Positions 21,310 through 35,710 of a DNA stretch of 64,000 nt are shown here, in pieces. The translations under genes and the position numbers were made by a program. The notes beneath the pieces are model-generated. The model had not been told where the DNA came from and ran no database searches. It saw only the letters and a program-made list of their open reading frames with translations. This DNA comes from Aquabacterium sp. Its GTDB lineage: Bacteria; Pseudomonadota; Gammaproteobacteria; Burkholderiales; Burkholderiaceae_C. The stretch covers positions 62,001 through 126,000 of the forward strand of contig NZ_JACPYU010000010.1 of NCBI RefSeq assembly GCF_016195855.1, given 5' to 3'. The stretch's first letter is position 1. The number at the start of each line of letters is the position of its first letter.

Positions 21310-22266
21310 ATGAAATCCCGTTTCCCGCTGAACGCCGCGATGGCCCTGATGGCCGCATGCCCCTCCCTGGCGCTGGCCTGCTCCAGCTGCGGTTGCACCT
21401 TGAACGCCGATTGGGCGAGCCAGGGGTTCACGACGCGCACCGGCCTGAGTGTGGACCTGCGTTATGACTACTTCAACCAGGACGAGTTGCGCACGGGCAC
21501 GGGCCGCTTTGACGCGGGGCAGGTGAGCTACCCGGCCGAGCAGGAAATCCAGCAAAAAACGGCCAACCGCAATACCACCTTGACGCTGGATTACGGCATC
21601 AACGCCGACTGGGGTGTCAGCCTGCAGCTGCCCTACATCAACCGCTACCACGAGACCATCGTGGACGGTGATACGGATGTGTCCACCTCGCGTTCGGGCG
21701 CCTGGGGTGATGCGCGCGTGCTGGGCCGCTACCAGGGCTTTTCACCCGAGCGCAACTGGGGCGTGCAGTTCGGCCTGAAGCTGCCCACGGGCAAGACGAG
21801 CGAGCGCTTCAACGGCGGCCCGCAAGCCGGTGAGGCCCTGGACCGCGGCCTGCAGCCGGGCACAGGCTCGACCGACCTTTTGCTGGGCCTGTACCGCTTT
21901 GGCCCCATCAACCAGCACCTTGACTACTTTGCCCAAGGCCTGCTGCAGCTGCCGCTCACGGCCAAGGACGAGTTCAAGCCCGGCATGGGCATGAACCTGT
22001 CAGCCGGGGTGCGTTATGTGTCGGCGGGCATGGTGGTGCCGCAGTTGCAGCTCAATGCGCGCATCGAGCGGCGCGAGGCCGGTGACAACGCCGATGTCGA
22101 CAACTCCGGCGCCACCCTGGTCTACCTGAGCCCGGGTGCCACTGTGAACCTCACGAACCAGTTCAAGCTGTATGGTTTTTTCCAGGTGCCGGTCTACCAG
22201 CGTGTCAACGGCCTGCAGATCGAGCCGCGCAGCAGCTTCTCGCTGGGCGTGCATTACAGCTATTGA
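21310..22266 (+). CDS. Outer-membrane beta-barrel protein with CSSCGC N-terminus
   Basis: The 318-residue protein has a signal peptide ending around SLALA. The mature protein begins CSSCGCTLNADW and is followed by alternating hydrophobic/polar beta strands (LSVDLRYDYFNQ, TTLTLDYGINADWGVSLQLP, WGVQFGLKLPTGKTSE) ending in an aromatic (SFSLGVHYSY), as in outer-membrane barrels. The clustered cysteines could bind a metal or form disulfides. The convergent neighbour is a TlpA-like thioredoxin, which could maintain them. The function is unknown. Confidence 0.75.
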   Translation: MKSRFPLNAAMALMAACPSLALACSSCGCTLNADWASQGFTTRTGLSVDLRYDYFNQDELRTGTGRFDAGQVSYPAEQEIQQKTANRNTTLTLDYGINADWGVSLQLPYINRYHETIVDGDTDVSTSRSGAWGDARVLGRYQGFSPERNWGVQFGLKLPTGKTSERFNGGPQAGEALDRGLQPGTGSTDLLLGLYRFGPINQHLDYFAQGLLQLPLTAKDEFKPGMGMNLSAGVRYVSAGMVVPQLQLNARIERREAGDNADVDNSGATLVYLSPGATVNLTNQFKLYGFFQVPVYQRVNGLQIEPRSSFSLGVHYSY

Positions 22267-22296
22267 TGCGGCCCGAGGCGTTGCCGCGGCAGCGCT

Positions 22297-22833
22297 TCAC
22301 AACAAGGGCTTGATGACGGCATCCAGCTGGGCCGCATTGAGCCCGGTCTGCACGAACCAGTCCTGCTTGACCAGCTTGCCCTGACGGTCGATCACGGCCG
22401 ACACGGGCATGCGCCAGATGCGGTCAAAGCCGCTGAGCTTGACCTGCGGCATCAGGGCCACGGGGAAGCTCCAGCCCTTGGCCAGCTCGCGCACCTTGGC
22501 CTCGTCGGCGGGCTCGTCCATGCTCAGTGCCAGCACGGCCAGCCCTTGCGCGCGGTGGGCGCGGTAGTAGGCCTCGATCTCGGGCATCTCGGCCCGGCAA
22601 GGCGCGCACCATGAGGCCCAGAAGTTCACCAGCAGCACCTGGCCCTTGAGGGCCTCGCTGGCAAATGGCTGGCCGTCCAGCAAGGCGCCCTTGATCGACA
22701 CGGCGGGGGGCTCGCCCCAGGCGCGTGCCGGCCTGGTCACCATCAAGCCGGCGAAACTGGCCAAACCGGCCAAGGCCTGGCGGCGAGTGTGGTCTTCGCA
22801 GGTGGCATTGGGCGAGGTGAGGTGCGACAGCAT
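22297..22833 (-). CDS. TlpA/ResA-like thiol-disulfide oxidoreductase
   Basis: The 178-residue periplasmic thioredoxin has the active site WASWCAPCRAEMPE, the cis-Pro region MPVSAVIDRQGKLV and an N-terminal signal with a twin Arg (RRQALAGLASFAGL) that could be Tat-type. Proteins of this family reduce disulfides, for example in apocytochrome c or metal-site assembly. It is convergent with the Cys-rich outer-membrane protein gene and downstream of the Crp-family gene on the same strand, with 54 bases between them. Confidence 0.88.
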   Translation of the reverse strand: MLSHLTSPNATCEDHTRRQALAGLASFAGLMVTRPARAWGEPPAVSIKGALLDGQPFASEALKGQVLLVNFWASWCAPCRAEMPEIEAYYRAHRAQGLAVLALSMDEPADEAKVRELAKGWSFPVALMPQVKLSGFDRIWRMPVSAVIDRQGKLVKQDWFVQTGLNAAQLDAVIKPLL

Positions 22834-22887
22834 GATCGGGCAAGGAAGAGAGCCAGGCCGCCAGTGTAGAGCGGGCCGTGGGGCGGC

Positions 22888-23685
22888 TTACTGCGCGCTC
22901 ACGGGCAGCCAGTGGGCAAAGCGCACTTTCTCTTGCAGCGCAAGCAGATGCGTGATCTCGATCTTGTTGTAGGCCATGTCGATCAGGCCATCGGCCTTGA
23001 GCCGTTGCAGCGAGAGATTGACGGTCTGGCGCGACATGCCCAGCATGTCGGCCACTTCGTGCTGCGCCACCGGCAGGCGCAGCCTCACGTCCTGCTTGCC
23101 GGGGGTGTAGAGCTTGGCCATCATCAGCAGCGTGCGCGCAACGCGCAACTCATTGGATTGCAGCGTGCGGCCATCGAGCGCGAAGAGCGCCAGCCTCAAT
23201 TTTTGTGTCAGCAGCAGGCCGAAGTGGAACCAGAGCGAGGGCTGCTCGTGCAGGAGCTGACGCAAGCGCTGGTTGTCCAGCCACAGCAGCAGCGCGGGCG
23301 ATTCGGCGCGGATGTGGTGGGCGCGCGGCAGCTTGTCGTACAGGCCCATTTCACCGAACCAGAAGACCGGGCAGAGGTGCAGCTGCACGGCCTCATCGCC
23401 ATGCTCGCTGCCATCCCGCGCGGACAGTCGCCCCTCCAGCAGGCAGTAGACGCCATCGGTGGCCTCGCCCCTTGAGAACAGGCTCTGGCCTTTGCTCAAA
23501 CGTTTGGTGGAGGCGATGTCCAGCATGCCTTGCTGCATGGCCGGCGGCAGGCTGGCAAACCAGGCGTCCGTGCCGAGGATGTCTTCGATGTAGGTGCGGG
23601 TGACTTGCATGGCGGGCATGCGCTGGCGGTGCGTGCAGGGGGGCGGAAAGGGGCTCATCTTGATGGTGTCGGCGGCCGAATTCAT
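22888..23685 (-). CDS. Crp/Fnr-family transcriptional regulator
   Basis: The protein has up to 265 residues. No clear ribosome binding site singles out the start, and MPAMQV, 22 codons in, is an alternative. It has a cyclic-nucleotide-binding-like beta roll (SKGQSLFSRGEATDGVYCLLEGRLS, FWFGEMGLYDKLPR) and a C-terminal winged helix with recognition helix VADMLGMSRQTVNLSLQRLK. The N-terminal Cys set of Fnr is absent, so oxygen sensing by an Fe-S cluster is unlikely. It is divergent from the LVIVD/DUF305 operon, and a perfect palindrome in between may be its site. Confidence 0.85.
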   Translation of the reverse strand: MNSAADTIKMSPFPPPCTHRQRMPAMQVTRTYIEDILGTDAWFASLPPAMQQGMLDIASTKRLSKGQSLFSRGEATDGVYCLLEGRLSARDGSEHGDEAVQLHLCPVFWFGEMGLYDKLPRAHHIRAESPALLLWLDNQRLRQLLHEQPSLWFHFGLLLTQKLRLALFALDGRTLQSNELRVARTLLMMAKLYTPGKQDVRLRLPVAQHEVADMLGMSRQTVNLSLQRLKADGLIDMAYNKIEITHLLALQEKVRFAHWLPVSAQ

Positions 23686-23707
23686 CTAGGGAAAACCAAT
23701 TGCGCCA

Positions 23708-23724
23708 AGGCCAATGTTTGGCCT
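23708..23724. promoter_or_regulatory. Palindrome between Crp-family gene and LVIVD operon
   Basis: AGGCCAA-TGT-TTGGCCT is a perfect 17-bp inverted repeat. It lies 22 bases upstream of the Crp-family start and 113 bases upstream of the LVIVD start, so it may control both directions. It does not match the TGTGA or TTGAT half-sites of Crp and Fnr, so the assignment to the adjacent regulator is only positional. Confidence 0.5.
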
Positions 23725-23836
23725 GCACGGTCAGTGACGTGGCCTTGATCGCCACCTAGGATCAGCGGCCCGTGTCAGTGGCGCATGCCGGCTTGACCGA
23801 GGTCATGAACAGGTATCCAAACGCAAGAGGACCCCG

Positions 23837-25330
23837 ATGGATAAACGCACGCGCTTTCCCTTTGCAGTCTTGGCGCTGGCCTTGTTGTCTGGCCAGATCT
23901 CGGTGACCCAGGCGGCCGAGGACCGCTCCACGGATGTCAATGTGGCTGTGGCCGCCGCGGTGTGCGGGCCGGGCGACCGGCCTGAGACGGGCTTGCAAGG
24001 CCAGGTGCCGCTGGCAGACCGGCTCAATGGCCGCAGCCGACAAGGCTATGCCTGCAACCTGGCGTTGGTGGGCCAGTACCAGGGCGAAGGCTCGGCCACC
24101 ATCAGCGCGGTGGGTGGGCATTGCGCCTACATGGCCACGTCGGCTTCGGGGCGGGGCAAGAAGGCCTCGCCCGGCGTGCAGGTCATTGACGTGTCCAACC
24201 CTGCCCAGCCCGTCCTGGCCCGCGCGCTGGCCACCCGTGCTTTCGAGCTGGGCACCTGGGAGTCGCTGAAGGTCAATGAGGCGGGCACCATGCTGGCCGG
24301 GGCGGGCGTGGGTACCTTGCTGGGCGCGGGCAAGCTGGACTTGTACGACATCACCGATTGCGCCAACCCCAGGTTGCTCAACAAGTCGGACACGGGGGAC
24401 TCCCTGCCCGTGACCAATGTGGCCCATGAGGGCGAGTGGTCGCCCGATGGCCGGACCTATTGGACATCGGGCCTGGCCGGCGGCACGCTCAGCGCCATCG
24501 ACGTGAGCAACCCCGCCAAGCCCGTGAACATCTACTTCGGTGGCTCGACCATCTTCGTCAACCACGGCATGTCCTTCAATGCCGACGGCACGCGCATGTA
24601 CCTGGCCAGCATCTTTCCGGCAGGGCTGGTCATCCTGGATGTGAGCGACATCCAGAACCGCAAGGCGACGAACCGCCGGGTCAGGCAGATCGCCAAGCTC
24701 ACCTGGCGCGATGGCAGCACCACACAAAGGGCGGTGCCCACGACGATCAAAGGGCGCCCCTATGTGATCGCCATTGATGAAATCGGGGGGGATGGCCTGG
24801 GGGGCGGCATCCGCTTCATCGACATCTCGGACGAGCTCAACCCGGTTGTCGTCTCGCACATCCGCCTGGCCATCCAGCTCAAGGAGAACGCCGACGCGGC
24901 CAAACAGGATGGGCTGGGCAATGGTGTCTTCAAGTACGACGCGCACTACTGCGCGGCAGACCGCCCCATCGAGCCGACTGCATTGGCCTGCGGCTACTTC
25001 CAGTCGGGCATCCGGGTGTTCGACATCCGCGATCCGCTCAAGCCCAAAGAGATTGCCTACTTCAACCCGCCCGCGCAAACAGGCAAGAACGCCTTGCTGC
25101 CCGGTTCCGACCACGTGGCCTCACCCGCGTTTGGCAGCATCCTGGACAAGCAGATCACCGACCCGGCCTTGTTGCAGATGCAGGCCAGCAAGAGCAAGTT
25201 GCCTGATCTGACGGCCGACTGGTGCTCATCGGCGCCCCAGTTCGTCAACGGCCAACTCTGGGCCACCTGCAACGACAACGGCTTCATGGTCTTGAAGTTC
25301 ACACATGGCGTTTATCCACTTGCCCGTTGA
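23837..25330 (+). CDS. Exported LVIVD-repeat beta-propeller protein
   Basis: The 497-residue protein has a signal peptide (FAVLALALLSGQISVTQAAED). It carries several LVIVD-type repeats: GVQVIDVSNPAQPVLA, KLDLYDITDCANPRLL, LSAIDVSNPAKPVNI, LVILDVSDIQNR, IRFIDISDELNPVVV, IRVFDIRDPLKPKEI. Together they would form a periplasmic propeller. No catalytic residues are recognised. Its end overlaps the DUF305 gene by 26 bases, so the two are made together. It is divergent from the Crp-family regulator. Confidence 0.85.
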   Translation: MDKRTRFPFAVLALALLSGQISVTQAAEDRSTDVNVAVAAAVCGPGDRPETGLQGQVPLADRLNGRSRQGYACNLALVGQYQGEGSATISAVGGHCAYMATSASGRGKKASPGVQVIDVSNPAQPVLARALATRAFELGTWESLKVNEAGTMLAGAGVGTLLGAGKLDLYDITDCANPRLLNKSDTGDSLPVTNVAHEGEWSPDGRTYWTSGLAGGTLSAIDVSNPAKPVNIYFGGSTIFVNHGMSFNADGTRMYLASIFPAGLVILDVSDIQNRKATNRRVRQIAKLTWRDGSTTQRAVPTTIKGRPYVIAIDEIGGDGLGGGIRFIDISDELNPVVVSHIRLAIQLKENADAAKQDGLGNGVFKYDAHYCAADRPIEPTALACGYFQSGIRVFDIRDPLKPKEIAYFNPPAQTGKNALLPGSDHVASPAFGSILDKQITDPALLQMQASKSKLPDLTADWCSSAPQFVNGQLWATCNDNGFMVLKFTHGVYPLAR

Positions 25331-25997
25331 GAGCGATCGGCTCAAGACCCTGGCCTTGATGACGATGATCACGCTGGTGGCGGCCGTCGTGGTCGGGGTC
25401 GAGTTCGCGACCATGCCACGGCTGAGGGGCGAGGCCACCTCGACCGCCCCTGTCGGCCCCGAGCATGGCCCCGTCGACATCGGCTTCGCGCAGGACATGT
25501 CCCTGCACCACGAGCAGGCCTTGACCATGGCCCAGATGGCCCTGGCCAAAGGCTCGCCTCGTGTGCGGCAACTCGCGCAGGGCATCGTCAACCAGCAACT
25601 CAAGGAGGTTGGTTACATGCAGGGCTGGTTGATGCTGTGGCAGGCACCCGGCATCGCGCCCACCGACGAGATGCACTGGATGCGCGATGCCTACGGGCGT
25701 TCGCCTCGTCGTGACCCGGCCTATGAGCGCTTCATCGACAACTGCATCCAGGGGCGGGGCATGCCTGGCCTGGCCTCCCCGGCCGAGCTCGACGCGCTGG
25801 CTGCGGTGGCGCAGGCAGAGGCCTTTGATGCCATGTTCCTCGCCTTGATGGTCCGCCACCATCAAGGGGCCGTGGTCATGGCACGCTTCGCATCCGAGTA
25901 TGCGCAGCTGGATGCGGTGCGTGGCTTTGCCCGGGCCGTCAGCGCGGAACAGCAGCAGGAGTTGATGCTGATGCTGAGGTGGTTGAAGACGCATTGA
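25305..25997 (+). CDS. DUF305 (ferritin-like) exported protein
   Basis: The 230-residue protein has an N-terminal TM/signal segment (LALMTMITLVAAVVVGVEF) and the paired His/Met motifs of DUF305: FAQDMSLHHEQALTMAQMAL and FLALMVRHHQGAVVMARF. DUF305 proteins form a four-helix bundle and are often found with copper or other metal functions, the M/H residues being likely ligands. The first codons overlap the end of the LVIVD gene. Confidence 0.88.
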   Translation: MAFIHLPVESDRLKTLALMTMITLVAAVVVGVEFATMPRLRGEATSTAPVGPEHGPVDIGFAQDMSLHHEQALTMAQMALAKGSPRVRQLAQGIVNQQLKEVGYMQGWLMLWQAPGIAPTDEMHWMRDAYGRSPRRDPAYERFIDNCIQGRGMPGLASPAELDALAAVAQAEAFDAMFLALMVRHHQGAVVMARFASEYAQLDAVRGFARAVSAEQQQELMLMLRWLKTH

Positions 25998-26005
25998 GCG
26001 TGGGG

Positions 26006-26036
26006 TGCATCCATGTGCGACGCACCGGCGTAGAGA
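26006..26036 (+). promoter_or_regulatory. Candidate ECF sigma promoter of the DUF4331 operon
   Basis: TGCATCC (26006-26012), an 18-bp spacer and TAGAGA (26031-26036) with GCG immediately before the TA. The same arrangement occurs before the ECF sigma gene (30701) and the SRPBCC gene (33082, minus strand). It lies 50 bases upstream of the DUF4331 start codon. Confidence 0.6.
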
Positions 26037-26085
26037 ACAGGTCGCGACACCCAGACCTTCTTCCTCGCACCTTCAGGAGCCTCTC

Positions 26086-27744
26086 ATGTCACACGCTCGT
26101 CGTCCGGCCTTGCGCCGGCTGTTTGTCTGCACCCTGGCCGCATGCGCCGGCATCACCAGCCTGGATACCGCCCTGGCCTCCAGCCACCGCGAAGCCCCCT
26201 TCATCACCACCTCACCCAAGGTGGACGGCACCGACTTCTACATGTTCATGAGCTACGAGGCCGGCCGCTCGGGCTACGTCACGCTCATTGCCAACTACCA
26301 GCCGCTGCAGGATGCCTACGGCGGCCCCAACTACTTCAAGATGGACCCGAACGCGCTGTACGAGATCCATGTGGACAACAACGGCGATGCGGTCGAGGAC
26401 CTCACCTTCCAGTTCCGCTTCAACAACACGCTGGCCAACAATGGCAAGGGCGTGGAGCTGGCGATCGGCAATGCCAATGTCGCGATCCCGCTGACGCAGG
26501 CCGGCGCCGTCAGCACCGTGGCTGATGGCCACCTCAATGTGGCCGAGACCTATTCCGTCAAGGTGGTGCGTGGCGATCGGCGCAAAGGCACGGTCGGTTT
26601 GTTGACCAAAGTGGGCAGCAGCACGAGCACCCTTGAAAAGCCGGTGGACTACATCGGCGACAAGACCCTGGGCAACAGCACGGCTTACGAGAACTACGCC
26701 CAGCAGCACGTCCACACCGTCACCATCCCGGGTTGCAGCATGCCGGCCAAGGTCTTCGTGGGCCAGCGCCAGGATGGCTTTGCCGTCAACCTGGGCCCGA
26801 TCTTCGACCTGGTCAATGCCACCCCCGCGCAGATCCTCAACCCGGATCTGAAGAACGCCTTCGCGGCCAACTCCATCCAGGACAAGAACGTGACCACGCT
26901 GGCGCTGGAGGTGCACAAGTCCTGCCTGACTTCGGGCAGCGACCCGGTCATCGGCGGCTGGACCACGGCCAGCATGCGCCAGGCACGCCTGCTGGATGGC
27001 TCACCCGCATCGGGCCTGCAGACCACGGACAAGGCCGGTGGCGCCTGGGTGCAGGTGTCCCGCCTGGGCAACCCGCTGGTCAACGAGGTCGTGATCGGTT
27101 TGCGTGACAAGGACAAGTTCAACGCCTCCAAGCCCAAGGACGATCTGCAGTTCGCCACCTATGTGACCAACCCCACCTTGCCCGCCTTGCTGGGCCTGGT
27201 GCTGGTCAATGACACCGCGGGCCTGGCGCCCACCAACCTGCCACGCACCGACCTGGTCTCGGCCTTCCTGACGGGCATCACCGGTTTGAACCGGCCCGCC
27301 AACCTCACCGCGGCGGCCGACGAACTGCGCTTGAACACCGCAGTGGCACCGGTGGCCGAGGGCAGCCAGAACCGCCTGGGTGCGGCAGGCGCCATCCTGG
27401 CTGCGGGCTCGGTGGCCGGTGCCACGGACCTGGCGGGCTTCCCCAATGGCCGCCGGCCCAAGGATGACGTGGTCGACATCGCCCTGGTGGCCATGGTGGG
27501 TGGCTTGTGCGCCATCAATGAAAGCATCGACCTGGGCCTGAGTTCGGTGGTGGTGCCCAAGGTCGGCACGCTGACCTCGACCTGCACGACGGCCTCACTG
27601 ACCGCCACGGCCAAGGCCGCAGGCAGCAATGGCCTGCCCAATGCCGCCAATGTGCACGATGGGGTGGACCAGGCGCAGGTGCCCTTCCTGACGCGCTTTC
27701 CTTACCTGAACACGCCGAACTCCGGTTCGACCCCCAAGCAGTAA
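26086..27744 (+). CDS. DUF4331 family exported protein
   Basis: The start at 26086 follows CAGGAG and gives 552 residues with a signal peptide (CTLAACAGITSLDTALASS). It opens SHREAPFITTSPKVDGTDFY, the hallmark of DUF4331, followed by beta-rich segments such as YEIHVDNNGDAVEDLTFQF and a C-terminal HDGVDQAQVPFLTRFPYLNT. The family is uncharacterised and repeatedly found with TPR and HupE-like genes, as here. It is the first gene of a four-gene operon (DUF4331, lipoprotein, TPR, HupE-like), behind a candidate ECF promoter. Confidence 0.88.
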   Translation: MSHARRPALRRLFVCTLAACAGITSLDTALASSHREAPFITTSPKVDGTDFYMFMSYEAGRSGYVTLIANYQPLQDAYGGPNYFKMDPNALYEIHVDNNGDAVEDLTFQFRFNNTLANNGKGVELAIGNANVAIPLTQAGAVSTVADGHLNVAETYSVKVVRGDRRKGTVGLLTKVGSSTSTLEKPVDYIGDKTLGNSTAYENYAQQHVHTVTIPGCSMPAKVFVGQRQDGFAVNLGPIFDLVNATPAQILNPDLKNAFAANSIQDKNVTTLALEVHKSCLTSGSDPVIGGWTTASMRQARLLDGSPASGLQTTDKAGGAWVQVSRLGNPLVNEVVIGLRDKDKFNASKPKDDLQFATYVTNPTLPALLGLVLVNDTAGLAPTNLPRTDLVSAFLTGITGLNRPANLTAAADELRLNTAVAPVAEGSQNRLGAAGAILAAGSVAGATDLAGFPNGRRPKDDVVDIALVAMVGGLCAINESIDLGLSSVVVPKVGTLTSTCTTASLTATAKAAGSNGLPNAANVHDGVDQAQVPFLTRFPYLNTPNSGSTPKQ

Positions 27745-27754
27745 GGAGCCCGCC

Positions 27755-28033
27755 ATGCATGCCATTTCAAACCTGAAGACGCTGCGTGCGGCCGGTGCCG
27801 TGCTGGGTGTGTTGTTGCTGTCGGCTTGCGGCGGTGGCGGCGGCGGTGCCCCCAGCGCGCAAGCCAGTGCGGACCCCACCGTGCAAGTGGCACCTGCTGC
27901 CAGCAGCAACGCGGCCGTGGCCACCAGCTACACCAGCAGCCTGGCCTCGACCCCGCCGGCCACGACCGACACGCTGGAGCCCTTGCCGGTCCCGGCGTCG
28001 CTGGCCACGGACGACACGGCCGAGCCGGTCTGA
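27755..28033 (+). CDS. Small lipoprotein of the DUF4331 operon
   Basis: The 92-residue protein has signal and lipobox LLLSACGGGGGG, then a short Ala/Thr/Ser-rich mature part with no domain. It lies 10 bases after the DUF4331 gene, with AAGGAG upstream. It is probably a small envelope lipoprotein partner. The glycine run after the lipid-bearing Cys is typical of outer-membrane-bound lipoproteins. Confidence 0.75.
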   Translation: MHAISNLKTLRAAGAVLGVLLLSACGGGGGGAPSAQASADPTVQVAPAASSNAAVATSYTSSLASTPPATTDTLEPLPVPASLATDDTAEPV

Positions 28034-28056
28034 GCCCCGAGCGACAGGAGGGCATC

Positions 28057-29259
28057 ATGCAGTGGGTGGAGGCAAGGCGTGCGAGCGGGCTCCGCGTGGG
28101 CCTGCGGGGCGGGGTGCTCGCCGGGCTGGCCGTGCTGCTGAGCGGGGGCATGCCGGCCCTCGCCGCCCAGCCCCGCGTGCCGCAGCTCGACAGCGAGGTG
28201 GTGGAGGTGCTGCGTGAGCGGCCCTTGTCTGCGCAGGAAAAAGCCTGGCGCGCCTTGCGTGCCCAGGCCCGTGCCAGGCCCACCGATGTGGCGCTGGCCA
28301 CGCAGGTGGCCTGGCAGGCCCTGCGCTGGGCCAGGCAGGACGGCGACCCGCGCTGGCTGGGGCAGGCGCAAGCCGCCTTGACGCCCTGGTGGTCACAGCC
28401 CGCCCCACCCGATGAGGTGCGCCTGTTGCGCGCCACCATCTTGCAAAGCACACATGACTTCGATGCGGCCCTGCGTGATCTGCGCGCCCTGGTGCGGGCC
28501 CGCCCGGATCAGCCGCAAGCCTGGCTGACACTGGCATCGGTGCTGCAGGTGACCGGGCAATACGATGAAGCACAAAGCGCCTGCAACGCGCTCAAGCCAG
28601 CCGGCGCACCCTGGCATGCCCAGGCTTGCGCGCTGGAACTGCACAGCCAGCGTGGGGAGGCGGGGGCTGCGGACGCCGCCCAGCGTGGTCTGGCCGAACT
28701 TGTGACCCGTGCCCCGCGTGAGCTGTCGGGCTACCTCAACCTCATTCGGGCTGAGCTGGCACAGCGTCAAGGCCAGCCAGACAAGGCGGCCGCGCTCTAC
28801 CAGGCCGTGCTGGCCGCTGAGGACGATGCCTACACCCAGGGTGCGTATGCAGACTTGTTGCTGGACCAGGGCCGCGCAGCCGAGGTGGTGAGCCTGCTCA
28901 AAGGCCACGAGCGCAACGACGCTCTGCTGCTGCGCCTGGCGCAGGCCTATGCCGTCACGGGCGATGCGGCACTGGACCGCAGCGTGCAGGCCTTGCGTGC
29001 GCGCTTTGCCGCCGCGCACGAACGTGGTGACAGCGTGCACCGGCGCGAAGAAGCGCGCTTCACGCTGCACCTGCTCAAGCGCCCCCAAGAGGCCTTGAGG
29101 CTGGCGCAACTGAACTGGCAGGTTCAGAAAGAACCAGCAGACGCGCGCATCTTGCTGGAAGCCGCTCAGGCTGCGGGTGAGCCTCAGGCGGCCGATGCGG
29201 TGCGTGCCTTCATGCGCCGCTGGGGCTGGTCTGACAAGCGCCTGGAGGCCTGGCTGTGA
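28057..29259 (+). CDS. TPR-repeat exported protein of the DUF4331 operon
   Basis: The start at 28057 follows ACAGGAGGG and gives 400 residues. A signal peptide (GVLAGLAVLLSGGMPALAAQP) is followed by helical TPR-like repeats: LLRATILQSTHDFDAALRDL, AWLTLASVLQVTGQYDEAQS, YLNLIRAELAQRQGQPDKAA. It probably scaffolds an assembly with the DUF4331 protein in the periplasm. Its stop overlaps the GTG start of the HupE-like gene, so expression is coupled. Confidence 0.82.
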   Translation: MQWVEARRASGLRVGLRGGVLAGLAVLLSGGMPALAAQPRVPQLDSEVVEVLRERPLSAQEKAWRALRAQARARPTDVALATQVAWQALRWARQDGDPRWLGQAQAALTPWWSQPAPPDEVRLLRATILQSTHDFDAALRDLRALVRARPDQPQAWLTLASVLQVTGQYDEAQSACNALKPAGAPWHAQACALELHSQRGEAGAADAAQRGLAELVTRAPRELSGYLNLIRAELAQRQGQPDKAAALYQAVLAAEDDAYTQGAYADLLLDQGRAAEVVSLLKGHERNDALLLRLAQAYAVTGDAALDRSVQALRARFAAAHERGDSVHRREEARFTLHLLKRPQEALRLAQLNWQVQKEPADARILLEAAQAAGEPQAADAVRAFMRRWGWSDKRLEAWL

Positions 29260-30599
29260 AGCACCTGCGCGCCCTCTTGCTGTGCGTGCTGGCCTGGTGC
29301 AGTGCCGGCACGGCCTGGCCCCACAAACCCAGCGACAGCTACATGACCCTGACCGCGCAAGATGGTGGCCAGGTTCTGGTGAACTGGCACGTGGCCCTGC
29401 GCGACCTGGACGGCGAGCTCTCCCTTGATGGCAACGACGATGGCCGGCTCACCTGGGGCGAGGTGCGCGCACGCTGGGCCGACATGCTGGGCTACGTCCG
29501 CCCGCACATGCGCCTCACGCATGCCGGTGTGGCCTGCACCGCGGTGGCCGGCAGCGACCAGGCCCCGGCCGTGATCGCGCACACCGACGGGCAGTACGCG
29601 GTGTTGGCGTGGACCGTGCAATGCCCCTTGTCGGCGGCCCAGCCCTGGTCCGACCTGGATGTGGATTACCGCCTCTTCGCCCTGAGCGACCCCACGCACC
29701 GTGGCATCGTGCGCTGGCGTGTGCAGGGCGCGGGCATGGCCACGGCACGCGAGGTCAGCAGCGTGGTGCTGGGCGTGACACGCACGCAGCACCATGTGAG
29801 CTGGACAGGCTTGCAGGGCGGCGTGCCCTTGTCCACGCAGGCCGATGCCGCTTCGCCCGTGTCGAACATATCGACCACCTCAATGAGCACATCAGCGGCC
29901 CCACCCCGCACGGCGGACAGCGCTTCCGGTAGCGAAACCCATGGTGAAACCCACAGCGCCCTCCTGCTGCGTTACGTGCACGACGGCGTCGACCACATCG
30001 CCGCCGGCATGGACCACATTCTTTTCCTCGTCTCCTTGTTGCTGGTGTCGGTGTGGCGCCGCGCGGAGGCCGGCCCCGGCATGGCCGCCCCACTCGGTTG
30101 GTTGCCACGTGAACAATGGCGCAGCGCGCTGGGCGAGGTCCTGCGCCTGGTCACGGCCTTCACGCTGGCCCATTCCTTGACGCTGGCCCTGGCGGCCTTT
30201 GGCGTGGTGTCGCCGCCTTCGCGCTGGGTCGAGTCCCTGATCGCGTTGAGCGTGCTCGTGGCCGCGCTGGACAACCTCTGGCCACTCTTGCGCGCACCCC
30301 GCTGGATCGTGGTGTTCGGCTTCGGCCTGGTCCACGGCTTCGGCTTTGCTGGCGCCATGCAGGACCTGGGCCTTTCCCGGCAAGACCTGGCCTGGCCGCT
30401 GCTGGGCTTCAACCTGGGCGTCGAGCTGGGGCAGTTGATGCTGGTGGCCCTGGTCCTGCCGCTGGCTTTCTGGTTGCGGCGCACGGCCTTGTACCGCCAG
30501 GCCGTGGTCTTGCCGGGCTCGCTGGCCATTGCCGTGCTGGCCGCGCTGTGGCTGTACCAGCGTGTGGCCGATGTGGCCCTGGGCTGGGTGCCGGGTTGA
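29256..30599 (+). CDS. HupE/UreJ-like membrane protein with EF-hand-like motif
   Basis: The protein has 447 residues from a GTG start in a GTGA overlap. After a signal peptide comes a ~200-residue periplasmic region. That region contains an EF-hand-like loop DLDGELSLDGNDDGRLTWGE (residues ~49-68), in which Asp and Asn residues could bind calcium. A C-terminal membrane domain follows with the HupE/UreJ_2 signature HDGVDHIAAGMDHILFLVSL, and then about six TM helices (LVTAFTLAHSLTLALAAF, FGFGLVHGFGFAGAM). HupE/UreJ proteins are putative nickel/cobalt permeases. A transport role here is inferred. Confidence 0.85.
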   Translation: MKHLRALLLCVLAWCSAGTAWPHKPSDSYMTLTAQDGGQVLVNWHVALRDLDGELSLDGNDDGRLTWGEVRARWADMLGYVRPHMRLTHAGVACTAVAGSDQAPAVIAHTDGQYAVLAWTVQCPLSAAQPWSDLDVDYRLFALSDPTHRGIVRWRVQGAGMATAREVSSVVLGVTRTQHHVSWTGLQGGVPLSTQADAASPVSNISTTSMSTSAAPPRTADSASGSETHGETHSALLLRYVHDGVDHIAAGMDHILFLVSLLLVSVWRRAEAGPGMAAPLGWLPREQWRSALGEVLRLVTAFTLAHSLTLALAAFGVVSPPSRWVESLIALSVLVAALDNLWPLLRAPRWIVVFGFGLVHGFGFAGAMQDLGLSRQDLAWPLLGFNLGVELGQLMLVALVLPLAFWLRRTALYRQAVVLPGSLAIAVLAALWLYQRVADVALGWVPG

Positions 30600-30601
30600 G
30601 C

Positions 30602-30621
30602 GCCTGATCGGCTGATCAGGC
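30602..30621 (+). other. Hairpin after the HupE-like gene
   Basis: GCCTGATC-ggct-GATCAGGC is an 8-bp perfect stem with a 4-base loop, two bases after the stop codon. There is no T run, so it is at best a rho-dependent or mRNA-stabilising structure. Confidence 0.4.
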
Positions 30622-30635
30622 CGAATCTGGCTCAA

Positions 30636-30663
30636 GCGGGCCCAGGCGGGCCCAGGCGGGCTC
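30636..30663 (+). repeat. 10-bp tandem repeat
   Basis: GCGGGCCCAG occurs twice in direct tandem, followed by a partial third copy GCGGGCTCA. It lies between the DUF4331 operon and the ECF sigma promoter. It is short and possibly just slippage. Confidence 0.6.
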
Positions 30664-30700
30664 ATCTGCCGATAAAGCCATGATGGCGAAAGGGGTAGCG

Positions 30701-30731
30701 TGAATCCACGCGGTATGAAAGGGCGTAAGGA
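30701..30731 (+). promoter_or_regulatory. Candidate ECF sigma autoregulated promoter
   Basis: TGAATCC (30701-30707), an 18-bp spacer and TAAGGA (30726-30731), with GCG immediately before the TA. This resembles the TGATCC...CGTA promoters of ChrR-linked ECF sigma factors. It lies upstream of the sigma gene (start 30828), which would make it self-activating. Confidence 0.6.
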
Positions 30732-30827
30732 ATCGAGGCATTTGCCAAACACAGTCAGGCGCGCCCATGATTCAATTCAGACTGCCGAGCCAGCCCTGCC
30801 CAAGCCCAGCCTTGTCGGGACCTTCCC

Positions 30828-31547
30828 ATGACCGATCTTTCTGATCTGAACGCCTGCGTGGACGACCTCGAAGCCGAGTGGCTCGACGCTGCGTCTGAAG
30901 AGGCGTGCGCGGAGGCTCCCCCCTTGCGGCCCCCCCCGACCGCCAACGAGGTGCAGCTGCAGGTCTGGTTGTCGCGCGTGGTGCGCCAGGACGAAGCCGC
31001 GCTGGCCGATCTGTACCGCGCGACGGTGGGCCGTGTGTATGGCCTGGCCCTGCGCATCGTGCGCAACCCCGCGCTGGCCGAAGAAGTGGCTGAAGACACC
31101 TTCTGGCAGGTCTGGCGGCAGGCCCCCCGTTTTGATCCGCAGCGCGGCACGGCCCTGGCCTGGGTGCTGACCATCGCCCGCAGCCGTGCGCTGGACGCCC
31201 TGCGTGCCCGCACCCGTGCGCAAGCCGACACCGTGTCGGCTGATGCGCTGGGCGACGCGCTGGATGCGCAGCGCCTGCACAGCGATCACGCCGACAACCC
31301 GCATGACCTGCTGGCATCCATGCAAAGCCATGAACAACTGCATGGCGCCTTGCGTCAGCTGGAGGCGGTGCCGCGGCAACTCGTGGCCCTGGCCTTCTTC
31401 AAAGGCCTGACCCATGAAGAAATCGCCGGGCAGACCGGCCTGCCGCTGGGCACGGTCAAGTCCCATATCCGACGCGCCCTGACGGTCCTGCGCAAGTGGT
31501 TGACCCCAGGCTGCGACCACGTGGCCAATCCGTATGATGCGGCGTGA
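30828..31547 (+). CDS. ECF-type RNA polymerase sigma factor
   Basis: The 239-residue protein has sigma region 2 (LADLYRATVGRVYGLALRIVRN, AEEVAEDTFWQVWRQAPRFD, ALAWVLTIARSRALD) and region 4 (VALAFFKGLTHEEIAGQTGL, GTVKSHIRRALTVLRKWL). An acidic N-terminal extension of ~45 residues (DLEAEWLDAASEEACAEAPP) is unusual for this class. Its end overlaps or abuts a ChrR-like cupin gene, the standard partner of ECF11-type sigma factors that respond to singlet oxygen or peroxides. Confidence 0.92.
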   Translation: MTDLSDLNACVDDLEAEWLDAASEEACAEAPPLRPPPTANEVQLQVWLSRVVRQDEAALADLYRATVGRVYGLALRIVRNPALAEEVAEDTFWQVWRQAPRFDPQRGTALAWVLTIARSRALDALRARTRAQADTVSADALGDALDAQRLHSDHADNPHDLLASMQSHEQLHGALRQLEAVPRQLVALAFFKGLTHEEIAGQTGLPLGTVKSHIRRALTVLRKWLTPGCDHVANPYDAA

Positions 31548-31557
31548 GGACCACGAC

Positions 31558-32472
31558 ATGAAGCCCTTGACACCCTCGCCTACCCCCCCGTCCATCATGT
31601 CCGGCACCGCCAGCTCCGCCTTGATCGGCCCGGCCGAGTTCGAGCCGCAGACGCTGCCCGGTGTGGCGCCGCTGGCCGCGCTGGGCCTGGCGCCCACGCT
31701 GGCCACGGCCTTGAGCCCGATCGAGCCCGACGCCGCCCAGGATGCCCGCCTGCGCGGCAAGCTGCTGGCGCGCGTGGCCCGCAGTGCCGCCGCCAACCGC
31801 CCCTTTGTGACCACGCGTGTGCACGATGGCGAGTGGCTGATGCTCGCCCCCGGCGTGCAGCAACGCCCGCTGCATGCCGATGACGCCGCGCAGAGCAGCT
31901 TGCTGCAATGGCAGGCCGATGCCGCATGCAGCCTGCCTGCCACGGGCCAGGCCCATGAGTGCCTGGTGCTGCAAGGCGAAGTCCATGTCAACGGGCAGGC
32001 CCTGCATGAACAGGACTACCTGCTGTGCCCCCCGCAAGAAAACGAGCAGGGGCCCCTGCGCCTGCAGGCCAGCGCCGGCACACGGCTGTACTGGCGCTGC
32101 ATCGAGCCTGGTGAAGAGGCCTTTGGCCGCACGGCGATGCCGCATCTGGCCCGCGCCAACGACATGGCCTGGGAGCCGCTGCGCCGTGGTGTGCAGATCA
32201 AGCCCTTGTATGCCGAGGGGGACCGCATCTCGATGCTGGTGCAGTTTGAGCCCGGCGCCAGCGTGCCGGCACATGGCCACGGCCATGGCGAAGAATGTCT
32301 GATGGTGGCCGGCGACCTCTTCCTGGGCGATGTGCTCTTGTGCCAGGGGGACTTCCAGTTCGCCCCGCGCGGCACGGGGCACGGCGCGCTGCAATCGGAC
32401 GTGGGCTGCGTGCTGTACTTCCACGGCGCCATCGACCCCGCGGTGGTGGACCCCAGCGTGCGCCCTGGCTGA
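31558..32472 (+). CDS. ChrR-like bicupin anti-sigma factor
   Basis: The start at 31558 is preferred because GTGAGGA lies upstream; an earlier in-frame ATG at 31534 overlaps the sigma gene. The ~304-residue protein has two cupin halves. The first (HECLVLQGEVHVNGQALHEQD) is partly degenerate. The second keeps a full ligand set: PAHGHGHGEECLMVAGDLF, then FAPRGTGHG. Classical ChrR has an N-terminal zinc anti-sigma domain with a H-x3-C-x2-C motif, and this is not seen. Residues 1-90 are instead Pro/Ala-rich with helices (ARLRGKLLARVARSAAANR). It probably inhibits the adjacent sigma factor until oxidised. Confidence 0.75.
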   Translation: MKPLTPSPTPPSIMSGTASSALIGPAEFEPQTLPGVAPLAALGLAPTLATALSPIEPDAAQDARLRGKLLARVARSAAANRPFVTTRVHDGEWLMLAPGVQQRPLHADDAAQSSLLQWQADAACSLPATGQAHECLVLQGEVHVNGQALHEQDYLLCPPQENEQGPLRLQASAGTRLYWRCIEPGEEAFGRTAMPHLARANDMAWEPLRRGVQIKPLYAEGDRISMLVQFEPGASVPAHGHGHGEECLMVAGDLFLGDVLLCQGDFQFAPRGTGHGALQSDVGCVLYFHGAIDPAVVDPSVRPG

Positions 32473-32505
32473 TCCCGTCGATCGACCGGCTCGGCTCGGC
32501 CTGGA

Positions 32506-33021
32506 TCAGGCCGGGCCACCTCGCCAGTTGGCGATCTCTGACACCGTGCAATGCAGGCGCCGGGCCATGCCGATGGCGCCTGCGCGCATCACCGTGAAGT
32601 GGTTCCAGGCGAACAGGCCGCGCAACAGCGGGGCGAAGCGGCGCATCCACGGGCGGGTCAACTCGACTTGATAGCGGTAGGTGACGTCCACCACATCGGG
32701 GGCGACCGGGTCGATCAGCCACAGTCCATGCCCGCGCAGATCGCCGCTGGACTGGCCCTCGATCTCGCCGTGGCCATCGGGGTGGCGCTCCGTGCGGGTA
32801 TTGAGCGCGTCGATGGTCAACTGGTAGCCCAGCGCGGTCTGCCAGGTCAGTTGCGCATGTGTGCCCGTCTGCCCGGGGGCCGAGCGCTTGAGGATCTTCA
32901 CCTCGCGCACATGCGGCCACCATTGCGGCCAGCCTTCCAGGTGGGTGAGCAAGGCCCACACCTGCGGCGCGGGACAATGCAGGCGCCAGCGGCTGATGAG
33001 CACAAAGCGGGTCGGGGACAT
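32506..33021 (-). CDS. SRPBCC (polyketide cyclase-like) protein
   Basis: The 171-residue START/SRPBCC-fold protein has the usual opening strand and helix (ISRWRLHCPAPQVWALLTHLEGWPQWWPHV), a middle antiparallel sheet and the C-terminal long helix (FAWNHFTVMRAGAIGMARRL). It probably binds a hydrophobic ligand. It is convergent with the bicupin gene and has the third copy of the ECF promoter pattern upstream, so it is probably part of the same regulon. Confidence 0.82.
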   Translation of the reverse strand: MSPTRFVLISRWRLHCPAPQVWALLTHLEGWPQWWPHVREVKILKRSAPGQTGTHAQLTWQTALGYQLTIDALNTRTERHPDGHGEIEGQSSGDLRGHGLWLIDPVAPDVVDVTYRYQVELTRPWMRRFAPLLRGLFAWNHFTVMRAGAIGMARRLHCTVSEIANWRGGPA

Positions 33022-33051
33022 GCAGGGGCGATCACAAAGAGGGCAACCCTC

Positions 33052-33082
33052 TTCATACGCTGGTCGTGTCGGGCTGGATGCA
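33052..33082 (-). promoter_or_regulatory. Candidate ECF sigma promoter of the SRPBCC gene
   Basis: Read leftward: TGCATCC (33082-33076), an 18-bp spacer and TATGAA (33057-33052), with GCG immediately before the TA. The start codon at 33021 is 30 bases downstream. It is the third instance of the pattern found at 26006 and 30701. Confidence 0.6.
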
Positions 33083-33126
33083 ATGTGTGCAAAGTGCTGT
33101 GGCCAGGGCGTTTGGCGTGAGGCTTG

Positions 33127-34176
33127 TCACGGCTTGGCCGCGACCGACGAACGATCTGCCTGCTGCACGGTGGCAAACGGCACCCGCTCCATCAGGTAAC
33201 ACAGGCAGTCCTGTCGCACCACCTGTTCGTCCAGCGTCAGCATGGCGGGCATGGCCGGGCGCTTGAGGCGCAGGGTGCCGTCGCCCGTGTCGAAGAAGGT
33301 GTGGGCCACGTCCTGCCCGGCTTCGTCGCGCACATCCAGTGGCATGGCCAGAGCGGTGTCGCCAAAGGCCGCGCCAGCATTCAGCTCCACGAAATTGAGG
33401 TGGTCCAGCTGGGCCTTGAGGTTCAGCGGGCGCTGCGGTGTGCCAAAGCCGAAGTCGACATCGGGCGCCACTTTCACCAGGGCCACGGTGTGGTACAGGT
33501 CGATGTCGGGCTCACGCACGCCATGTTCGGGGAAGGCGGCCAGATGCAGGCAGGCCTCGATGAAACGGGCGGCGGCGGCCTCGTTGGCCGGGTGGCCGGG
33601 CTTGCCGCACTCCACCGCCACGGAGGGGCACAGCGGGGCGAAGGCCGCGGTCTGTGAGCCCTGCGGCCCCCGGAACCACACCACCGTGCGGGTCAGCAGC
33701 AAGGCCAGGTGCAGCGTGGCCGCATCCAGTTGGCTGACCACGCTGTAGTGCGGGTTCAGGCCGGTGTTGTTGTGGATGTCGATGCTGGCAAACAGGCCGC
33801 GTTGCAGCATGATGGCTTGCACCTCGCGCGCGATGGCCGCCTCCGGGGTGCCGGCATGCACCACGGTGCCGGGCCAGATGCGGTTGTAGTCGGGCTGCGT
33901 GTCCAGCCGACGCATGCCGGTTTGCGCGGCCGAGACATTGCCGATGAACAGGCTCATGGCCCGAGGCAACTCGCGCCCGGCATGGGCCTTGAGCACCTGC
34001 TGGATGGCCACCAGGCCCACGTCCTCGTTGCCATGCAGCAGCACGGACACGAAGAGCTCGGGTGTGCGCCGGCCAGGCAGGTGGATCAGGGTGGGGCCGT
34101 CGATGAGCTGGTGCAGGTCGCGCGCGGTGGCGTCCAGAAAACCATCGGGCAGGGCGGTGAGGCGGGTGAGCTTCAT
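33127..34176 (-). CDS. M14-family succinylglutamate desuccinylase/aspartoacylase-like amidohydrolase
   Basis: Starting at 34176 gives 349 residues. The zinc site is clear: LLHGNED (His48, Glu51) and SIDIHNNTG (His135). The catalytic Glu189 is in SVAVECGKPG, and PDYNRIWPG matches the substrate-binding segment of AstE/ASPA. The enzyme should cleave an N-acyl amino acid or similar amide. The ast pathway genes are absent. Instead it lies 17 bases downstream of a GCS2-like ligase, so the substrate may be the product of that enzyme. Confidence 0.82.
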   Translation of the reverse strand: MKLTRLTALPDGFLDATARDLHQLIDGPTLIHLPGRRTPELFVSVLLHGNEDVGLVAIQQVLKAHAGRELPRAMSLFIGNVSAAQTGMRRLDTQPDYNRIWPGTVVHAGTPEAAIAREVQAIMLQRGLFASIDIHNNTGLNPHYSVVSQLDAATLHLALLLTRTVVWFRGPQGSQTAAFAPLCPSVAVECGKPGHPANEAAAARFIEACLHLAAFPEHGVREPDIDLYHTVALVKVAPDVDFGFGTPQRPLNLKAQLDHLNFVELNAGAAFGDTALAMPLDVRDEAGQDVAHTFFDTGDGTLRLKRPAMPAMLTLDEQVVRQDCLCYLMERVPFATVQQADRSSVAAKP

Positions 34177-34193
34177 GGATGTCAAAGAGGCTG

Positions 34194-35624
34194 TCAAAGA
34201 GGCCATTCGTGCACAGGCAGGCCGCTGCGCTGGTTGGCCAGGTAGTCGGCAGTGAGTTTGAACAGGTCGCCATGCCGGGCATGGTGCGCCAGTTGCCAGG
34301 CTGCGCCGTTGCGGTGGGTGCGCAGTCGCACGGCCAGCACGTCCAGGTAACGCTCGATGTCTTGCGAGGCCAGGCCTTGTTGCTGCAGGCCTTCGCGGGC
34401 CATGGGCAGCAGGTCGATGAGGATGTCGGCGGCGCAGCGGGTGCGGCCATCCAGCCAGCTCAGCGGGGCATCCAGGCCTTCGCGGGCGGCACGGTAGAAG
34501 TTGTCGCGCGCGGGCGCAAAGGGCAGCAAGGCCTCGGGTGGTGTGGCGCCCAGCGCCAGCATGTGGACCACGCCGTAGTAGAAGGCGGCGTTGGCGATCA
34601 TGTCGATGATGCTGGGGCCGGCCGCCATCACGCGCTGTTCGATGCGCAGATGGGGTTGACGGCTGTCGTTGAAGCCGATCAGCAGGCGATTCCAGCGCCA
34701 GATGGTGCCGTTGTGCAGGCGCAGGTGGGTGAAGGCGCTGTCGGGCGTGTCGCTGCAAAGCGGCAGCAGCACTGGGTAGCGGCGGGCGTTGTCGGCAAAG
34801 TAATCGGTGGGGTCGCTGCCCAGGTAGCCCTCACCAAAGCCAACGCGCCGGCCTTGTGCATGCTGGTCGCTGCCGCAGTCCACGGCCTGCTCGAACAGCG
34901 GCACGCGCGTCTCGTGCCACAGGCTGTGCCCGAACAGGAAGGGCGAGTTGGCCGACAAGGCCAGCAAGGGCCCGCTCAGGATCATCGAGGCGTTCATGTG
35001 CCGGCTGATCTGCGCGGCGGGCACCTGCAGGTGCACCTGGAAGGACGTGGTGGCCGCCTCCAGCATGACGTCGGCATGGCTGGTGTGCAAGTGCGGCTCA
35101 CCTGGCCGGTGTGAGGCGATGTCCAGCGTGATCGGGCGGCCCTGGCGGGCCTTGAACACCTGCTGGTTGAGCGCGACATAACGCTTGGAGGGCGTCATGG
35201 TCGACAGGTTCAGGTCGGTCTCGCGCAGCGTGGGCAGGGTGCCGATGGCCACGGCCGTGGCTTCCTCGTCGTGCGCCGTTTGCAGGCAGCGCGCCCAGGT
35301 CTGGCTCAGGCCCTGCTCCAGCCGGGACAAGGCCAGGCCCGTGAGCGGTTGCGGCTCACCATTGAGCTCGATGTTGAAGCGCGAGAGTTCGGCCACCACC
35401 AGTGGGTCGGCCATGCGGGCCAGAAAGGCCTGGTTGCAGGGGATGGGGCAGAAGTGGCGGTCCAGCAGCCAGGCTTCCAGCTCGAAGCCGGCCACGCGGG
35501 CATCTGCCGCGAAACCGCCTTGTGCAAAGGTGGCTTGTGCCAGCCGGGTTTCGTCGGCCAGCCGCTGGCTGAATCGGGTGTGATCCTGCTCGGTGAAGCG
35601 GGTTGAGGTGATCTCCTGGCCCAT
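34194..35624 (-). CDS. Glutamate-cysteine ligase (GCS2)-like carboxylate-amine ligase
   Basis: The 476-residue protein has the GCS2 core: VAGFELEAWLLD (glutamate and Mg site), FNIELNGEP, and a later ATP/metal region around LRIEQRVMAAGPSI. GCS2/YbdK-type enzymes join a glutamate-like carboxylate to an amine with ATP. True GshA is typically elsewhere in the genome, so this is probably a specialised paralogue. It forms an operon with the M14 amidohydrolase. The pair looks like synthesis and hydrolysis, or synthesis and trimming, of one amide. Confidence 0.8.
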   Translation of the reverse strand: MGQEITSTRFTEQDHTRFSQRLADETRLAQATFAQGGFAADARVAGFELEAWLLDRHFCPIPCNQAFLARMADPLVVAELSRFNIELNGEPQPLTGLALSRLEQGLSQTWARCLQTAHDEEATAVAIGTLPTLRETDLNLSTMTPSKRYVALNQQVFKARQGRPITLDIASHRPGEPHLHTSHADVMLEAATTSFQVHLQVPAAQISRHMNASMILSGPLLALSANSPFLFGHSLWHETRVPLFEQAVDCGSDQHAQGRRVGFGEGYLGSDPTDYFADNARRYPVLLPLCSDTPDSAFTHLRLHNGTIWRWNRLLIGFNDSRQPHLRIEQRVMAAGPSIIDMIANAAFYYGVVHMLALGATPPEALLPFAPARDNFYRAAREGLDAPLSWLDGRTRCAADILIDLLPMAREGLQQQGLASQDIERYLDVLAVRLRTHRNGAAWQLAHHARHGDLFKLTADYLANQRSGLPVHEWPL

Positions 35625-35710
35625 GAGGTGGTGATGGCGGTGAACAAGCTTGCATCATCGCCATTTGCGGGCGCGGGATCACGCGATAACCGTACCGGGC
35701 TTGAGGCGTA

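Follow-up and report, generated by a model that had tools for sequence, protein, structure and literature searches.

Which sigma factor reads three matching promoter-like sites that lie within 7 kb of an Aquabacterium sp. genome, and which genes would it control? The sites are located in a stretch of 64,000 nucleotides (NCBI RefSeq assembly GCF_016195855.1, contig NZ_JACPYU010000010.1, positions 62,001 to 126,000 of the forward strand), which is called the window in the following. The original prediction had assigned them to a local stress regulon and had likened them to the promoters of ChrR-linked extracytoplasmic function (ECF) sigma factors. The present analysis argues for a different assignment. 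It is very probable that the three sites serve as sigma-specific promoters, and they likely belong to the SigK-like sigma factor encoded at 30828-31547, which would control its own gene, the adjoining cupin gene, a DUF4331-TPR-HupE operon (TPR, tetratricopeptide repeat), and an SRPBCC gene. What can be read directly from the DNA is where the sites are, that they are conserved next to this sigma clade, and how the genes are ordered. The features of the locus are:

26006..26032, plus strand: putative promoter P1, TGCATCC-N16-CGTA, ahead of the DUF4331 operon (pattern match, matrix score)
26086..27744, plus strand: DUF4331 protein of 552 amino acids with a signal-peptide-like start, judged by eye (PF14224, 478 bits)
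27755..28033, plus strand: small lipoprotein-like protein of 92 amino acids, lipobox seen by eye (open reading frame (ORF) without Pfam match)
28057..29259, plus strand: TPR-repeat protein (PF14559 and other TPR models)
29256..30599, plus strand: HupE/UreJ_2-type membrane protein (PF13795, 169 bits)
30701..30727, plus strand: putative promoter P2, TGAATCC-N16-CGTA, ahead of the sigma gene (autoregulation), the weakest of the three
30828..31547, plus strand: SigK-like ECF sigma factor (Sigma70_r2 and r4_2)
31558..32472 (alternative start 31534), plus strand: double-cupin protein, predicted anti-sigma factor (Cupin_7, 85 bits)
32506..33021, minus strand: SRPBCC / Polyketide_cyc protein (PF03364, 41 bits)
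33056..33082, minus strand: putative promoter P3, TGCATCC-N16-CGTA, ahead of the SRPBCC gene (pattern match, matrix score)

The sites were found exactly where they had been predicted, starting at 26006 (plus strand), 30701 (plus strand), and 33082 (minus strand), and all of them follow the pattern TGMATCC-N15-GCGTA. The motif has a length of 27 bases, and the ranges given originally extend 4 bases beyond it. From the end of the motif to the start codon the distances are 53 bases (DUF4331), 100 bases (sigma), and 34 bases (SRPBCC). The window contains three matches to the pattern versus 0.02 expected by chance. The genome scan that had been proposed as a check was run and yielded three exact matches in 4.88 Mb, all of them within these 7 kb, while the backwards-read pattern had none. 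With up to one mismatch the whole genome contains 26 matches, compared to 10 for the reversed pattern; with up to two mismatches the window contains 4 matches versus 9.5 expected, and near misses are thus not enriched. Release of the final fixed G (TGMATCC-N16-CGTA) adds a single genome match, which is treated below.

The pattern had been picked after the sites had been seen, and therefore two tests were added that are less dependent on it. A weight matrix was trained on 83 sites from other loci, with the window and the loci L057 and L058 excluded; the training sites had still been gathered by means of a looser version of this pattern. Over the 64 kb of the window, the top three positions of the matrix are exactly the three reported sites, with 23.2, 22.0, and 15.1 bits, and no other position exceeds 8 bits. 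The best score per copy, taken over 60 Markov copies of the window, averaged 11.1 bits and reached at most 18.9 bits, and the highest third score was 13.2 bits. Because of these scores, P2 alone could be reached by chance, but the three sites together could not.

The motif is also present in independent loci. The window sigma factor was aligned with seven related sigma factors, and 80 loci, the best 80 of at least 566, were fetched by sigma homology (1.34 Mb in total). TGMATCC-Nx-CGTA occurred in them 84 times with x = 16 (53 loci) and 20 times with x = 17 (17 loci), and every other spacing in the range of 10 to 23 occurred 0-2 times; as controls, a reversed -10 element gave 0-5 and a reversed -35 element 0 occurrences. 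An unseeded count of 4-mer/gap/4-mer combinations upstream of the sigma genes, which excluded the window, L057, and L058, ranked ATCC-N16-CGTA first, with 40 of 64 loci versus 1 of 62 controls. Two positions that the pattern had left free are conserved nevertheless: in 84 N16 sites of the window and the loci L057-L123, the base behind ATCC is A or G in 97%, and the base ahead of CGTA is G in 79%. All three window sites agree with both. The consensus of the promoters assigned to the window sigma factor is TG[C/a]ATCC-R-N14-G-CGTA. In the near relative L057, which stems from an Aquabacterium metagenome-assembled genome, a site is present at all three corresponding places. At P1 the core is kept in 11 of 11 bases and the spacer in only 7 of 16, the P2 place reads TGCATCC-N17-CGTA, i.e., it has a spacer of 17 bases, and the P3 place reads TGCATCT-N16-CGTA.

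A site within -250 to +350 bases of the gene start was found for 45 of 84 sigma genes, 15 of 25 DUF4331 genes, and 5 of 15 SRPBCC genes, for 7 of 70 cupin, 2 of 20 TPR, and 0 of 14 HupE2 genes, and for only 20 of 902 other genes. Using relaxed sites, 94 of 112 could be assigned to a gene start, and 75 of 112 are located outside called genes, compared to 19% intergenic sequence; the called gene starts are crude, and the site-to-gene distances carry the same error.

It had been stated that the motif joins otherwise unrelated genes. This holds only in part, because sigma, cupin, DUF4331, TPR, HupE, and SRPBCC genes recur together in other bacteria. A DUF4331 gene is found near this sigma gene in 25 of 81 stretches. 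DUF4331, TPR, and HupE/UreJ genes are near the sigma gene also in Methylomonas and Thiogranum, and DUF4331 and TPR genes in a metagenome-assembled genome of Phycisphaerales. In some loci the SRPBCC gene would be a target of its own, and in others it occupies the third position of the sigma operon, the latter in Accumulibacter. In several loci (e.g., L119, L126, and L129), the DUF4331 and sigma genes point away from each other, and each strand carries a site. As a side observation, the loci L169 (10027-10090) and L170 (8393-8475) contain divergent motif copies, one per strand and 10 to 29 bases apart, which are positioned between the sigma operon and its neighbour.

By its sequence, the window sigma factor is SigK-like. 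The best solved relative of the aligned sigma family is SigK (4nqw, 145.7 bits), followed by RpoE (2q1z, 122.3 bits), and the best NCBIfam model for the window sigma factor is PRK09646 SigK, with 157 bits, below the cut-off of 226. According to the literature, the SigK proteins of M. tuberculosis and Yersinia are grouped in ECF18 and ECF19, respectively (PMC7509140). In a tree of 111 sigma factors, from which L099 (no sigma factor called) and L052 (internal stop) had been dropped, one branch (100/100) separates the 11 ECF11 sigma factors from all others and another (100/93) does so for the 20 RskA-type sigma factors; the window sigma factor is in neither group. The tree label "cupin" requires 20 changes, which is partly an artefact of the rule used to assign neighbours: L069 and L106 carry the label "without", as do 24 other rows, although the gene map shows a cupin gene for these two. 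Because the "cupin" labels are unreliable, the tree is used only to state that the window sigma factor is separate from the RskA-type and ECF11 rows.

Among 120 sampled genomes of the family, the motif is distributed in line with SigK-like sigma factors, which were called at E values up to 1e-20. The 70 genomes with a SigK-like sigma factor contain 317 sites (mean 4.5, 7 genomes with none, reversed control 16), whereas the 50 genomes without contain 39 sites (mean 0.8, 30 genomes with none, control 12), so the background is about one match per genome. The neighbouring gene is of the RskA type in 20 and a cupin gene in 10 of the 30 best sigma loci of the family. For the cupin-type sigma genes, the window's own included, the motif is present within 500 bases upstream in 4 of 10 and within 1.5 kb upstream in 7 of 10 cases. 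RskA-type sigma factors also carry it, and therefore the motif is a feature of the SigK-like group at large and is not confined to this clade. The system is similar to SigK-RskA in its nearest solved sigma factor and in a promoter that is partly shared with RskA-type sigma factors of the family. In contrast to SigK-RskA, the partner of the window sigma factor is a cupin protein, an RskA gene is not adjoining, and the sigma factor lies outside the RskA-type clade.

The same motif precedes both the sigma gene and linked targets and is conserved in independent loci, which supports the local, autoregulated regulon that had been predicted. In the proposed mechanism, RNA polymerase carrying the SigK-like sigma factor would read all three sites. 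The cupin protein, encoded just after the sigma factor, would keep it inactive via a reduced N-terminal helix segment, and sensing of a metal, an oxidant, or a small ligand by the cupin domain would release it. The released sigma factor would then transcribe the sigma-cupin genes, the DUF4331-TPR-HupE operon, and the SRPBCC gene. The outcome would be a small, self-amplifying, and mostly local regulon, the proteins of which are probably located in the cell envelope or periplasm.

Several observations weigh against this assignment. The site of the sigma gene itself, P2, is the weakest one, and its 15.1 bits are below the best score of the Markov copies. No site could be assigned to 39 of 84 sigma genes, 10 of 25 DUF4331 genes, and 10 of 15 SRPBCC genes, although some of the siteless SRPBCC genes are located downstream within the sigma operon. 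The motif is found within 500 bases upstream of 7 of the 20 RskA-type SigK-like sigma genes of the family. And the cupin protein is a predicted anti-sigma factor by its gene position, its fold, and a short helix.

The last point leads to the alternative that the cupin protein is an enzyme or a co-activator, and that control of the sigma factor occurs through its own synthesis or through another protein, which we regard as rather unlikely. In ChrR of R. sphaeroides, a helical domain binds the sigma factor and the cupin is required for the response; the zinc anti-sigma site consists of His6, His31, Cys35, and Cys38, and the metal ligands of the cupin are H-x-H, E, and H (PMC6852236). In the model of the window partner (predicted local distance difference test (pLDDT) score 88.7), two cupin barrels come after helices at 25-28, 45-51, and 59-79, and the first 30 residues have low confidence. 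The presence of only short helices before the cupins, compared to the zinc-bound helical domain of ChrR, would fit an enzyme or co-activator. So would an extra cupin gene, which four family genomes (loci L252-L255 of G030, G062, G007, and G118) contain just upstream of the sigma gene besides the partner cupin. On the other hand, the gene right after the sigma gene encodes a cupin in 56 of the 81 stretches. The relatives contain either a single or a double cupin, preceded by a comparable short segment, and a sequence resembling LR.RLL.RV is found again in both versions. The best Foldseek match of the model is ChrR (3o14, E value 8.2e-15). By analogy with ChrR, the short N-terminal segment would be the likely sigma-binding part. 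The C-terminal cupin keeps HGHGHGEE and a later GH, and thus the H-x-H/E/H metal pattern, as judged by eye; the first cupin of the window protein lacks the metal pattern, while many relatives keep HRH and EE there (also by eye). The motif lies just before the extra cupin gene in G030, G062, and G007, and no site was found there in G118.

In another alternative, the sites might be read mainly by the other SigK-like sigma factor of the genome, or by both. This second sigma factor is encoded on contig C28 (L166, 3865-6177, minus strand) together with an anti-sigma factor of the general type, RskA-like by eye (NF052375, 93.5 bits, cut-off 100). The sites upstream of RskA-type relatives noted above speak for such a reading. 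However, 14 kb around the C28 locus do not contain an exact site; the site right before the gene upstream of the sigma gene has two mismatches, and a site with one mismatch is about 2 kb further off, inside an ORF. This upstream gene, which we take to encode a DUF4394 protein, has no NCBIfam match. In addition, the three sites surround the cupin-type sigma gene, and this arrangement is kept in L057. We therefore consider control by the C28 sigma factor improbable and retain the cupin-linked sigma factor of the window as the one that likely reads the sites.

The proposed link to ChrR-type ECF (ECF11) sigma factors did not withstand the analysis, and an ECF11-type RpoE system that answers singlet oxygen or organic peroxide is very unlikely here. 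RpoE-ChrR systems (R. sphaeroides, P. syringae PSPTO_1043, S. oneidensis RpoE2) share with the window a cupin partner, a C-terminal cupin with the metal-ligand pattern, autoregulation (PMC5507510, PMC4336711, PMC6852236), and ATCC-N16-CGTA, i.e., an identical -10 element at an identical distance of 16 bases. However, SigK is the best match of the window sigma factor, which lies outside the ECF11 branch. The N-terminal part of the partner lacks the zinc anti-sigma site: residues 1-88 from the start at 31558 contain neither His nor Cys, and residues 1-96 from 31534 contain a single His but no Cys. Against the ChrR model (TIGR02451), the partner scores 27.1 bits, far below the cut-off of 124.5, and in the cupin part only. 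Published ECF11 promoters have the sequence TGATCC-N16-CGTA (PMC5507510, PMC4336711), in contrast to TGMATCC-N16-CGTA at the window sites, so that one inserted base in the TG step separates the two codes. In the family, chrR exceeds the TIGR02451 cut-off in 11 of 120 genomes (12 matches), and the genome of the window is not among them. Within 1.5 kb upstream of chrR, which covers the sigma gene and its promoter, the rpoE-chrR pairs have TGATC[CT]-N16-CGTA in 11 of 11 and TGMATCC in 0 of 11 loci (11 loci of the 12 chrR matches). Conversely, 67 loci fetched with the window sigma factor contain TGATCC-N16-CGTA 4 times versus TGMATCC 81 times. Genome G116 carries both systems. None of ten scanned window proteins is a photolyase or a cyclopropane fatty acid synthase.

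That the sites are a chance match to a pattern fitted by eye is practically negligible for the set of three, in spite of the lack of enriched near misses in the window and of a P2 score within the range of the Markov copies, given the three-only genome matches, the spacing peak, the conserved free positions, the matrix ranking, and the unseeded dyad; chance is very unlikely for P1 and P3 because they are conserved in independent loci, and P2 is the weakest.

The promoters of the SigK-like sigma factor may extend beyond the locus. The sole other TGMATCC-N16-CGTA of the genome is located about 100 bases before bufA2-bufB (L167 on contig C17, 1834-3138, minus strand), with BufA2 (104.9 bits) and BufB (395 bits) both over the cut-off. 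Classical DUF2282 (Buf1) was rejected as a candidate for this fourth site, since the genome has its sole DUF2282 match elsewhere (C20); no search for the motif was made at the DUF2282 loci. Within 500 bases upstream, an exact site is present for 7 of 28 BufA2 loci (25 family genomes) and a site with at most one mismatch for 10 of them, and the opposite strand has 0. For genomes of this sigma clade (50 of 59 listed genomes, 25 genes over the cut-off, 23 with loci), the respective numbers are 2 of 23 and 7 of 23, the latter having been corrected from 6 for L274, the locus of which is cut at the contig end; the controls on the opposite strand and downstream gave 0 before this correction. In the nearest relative the bufA2 site is altered, with a spacer of 17 bases and CGTC. 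BufA2 genes thus have sites more often than controls, though not generally, and the connection is only partly borne out. The bufA2 site is a copper lead of moderate strength. In published cases of bufferin (gig) operons that adjoin an ECF sigma gene, NrsF or a predicted membrane anti-sigma factor is encoded there as well, whereas here any control would come from a distant locus. For gigPABT-rpoQ of C. metallidurans, control by RpoQ is assumed, not shown, in the respective report (PMC10304878), and a survey of Buf1 and Buf2 describes bufferin-2 copper-peptide clusters as lacking sigma or NrsF genes of their own (PMC12452194).

A wider reading of all these observations is possible but doubtful. 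In a widespread SigK-like clade, the role of the membrane anti-sigma factor RskA might be taken by a soluble sensor of one or two cupins that has a minimal sigma-binding helix; the clade might share a SigK-type promoter with its RskA-type relatives, one base away from the ECF11 promoter; and it might control the DUF4331-TPR-HupE envelope module as well as distant bufferin-2 operons in some genomes. If true, this would make the system a copper or metal response, and the partner would be a small variant on anti-sigma action. With the likely assignment of the sites, a sigma clade of many environmental beta- and gammaproteobacteria obtains a promoter code that can be tested and that differs from the similar ECF11 code in one base of the -35 element; DUF4331 is tied to a predicted regulon as well. 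Among the titles listed in literature searches outside subscription journals, for most searches only some of the hits, none described this promoter or a cupin-linked SigK; one listed paper (PMC6411747) contains the string TGCATCC once.

The literature searched also contained no mention of DUF4331. Its structural model is poor (mean pLDDT 64.6), and a fold search gave no PDB match at an E value of 0.001; therefore, we do not claim a function for it. By sequence, its sole match to a solved structure has an E value of 0.92. An Rfam scan of 22000-36000 at gathering scores gave no match. Directly before P1, the window contains genes for an LVIVD-repeat protein and a DUF305 protein (23837-25997; CopM-like, 88.7 bits, cut-off 90), which do not have a motif of their own and are a possible metal-handling neighbour. 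In Curvibacter gracilis (L088, 9653-20357), a sigma-cupin pair is accompanied by a nearby second set of genes with several motif sites, and members of the second-set clusters in other loci match globin, DUF3034, a ferritin-like protein, and cytochrome c.

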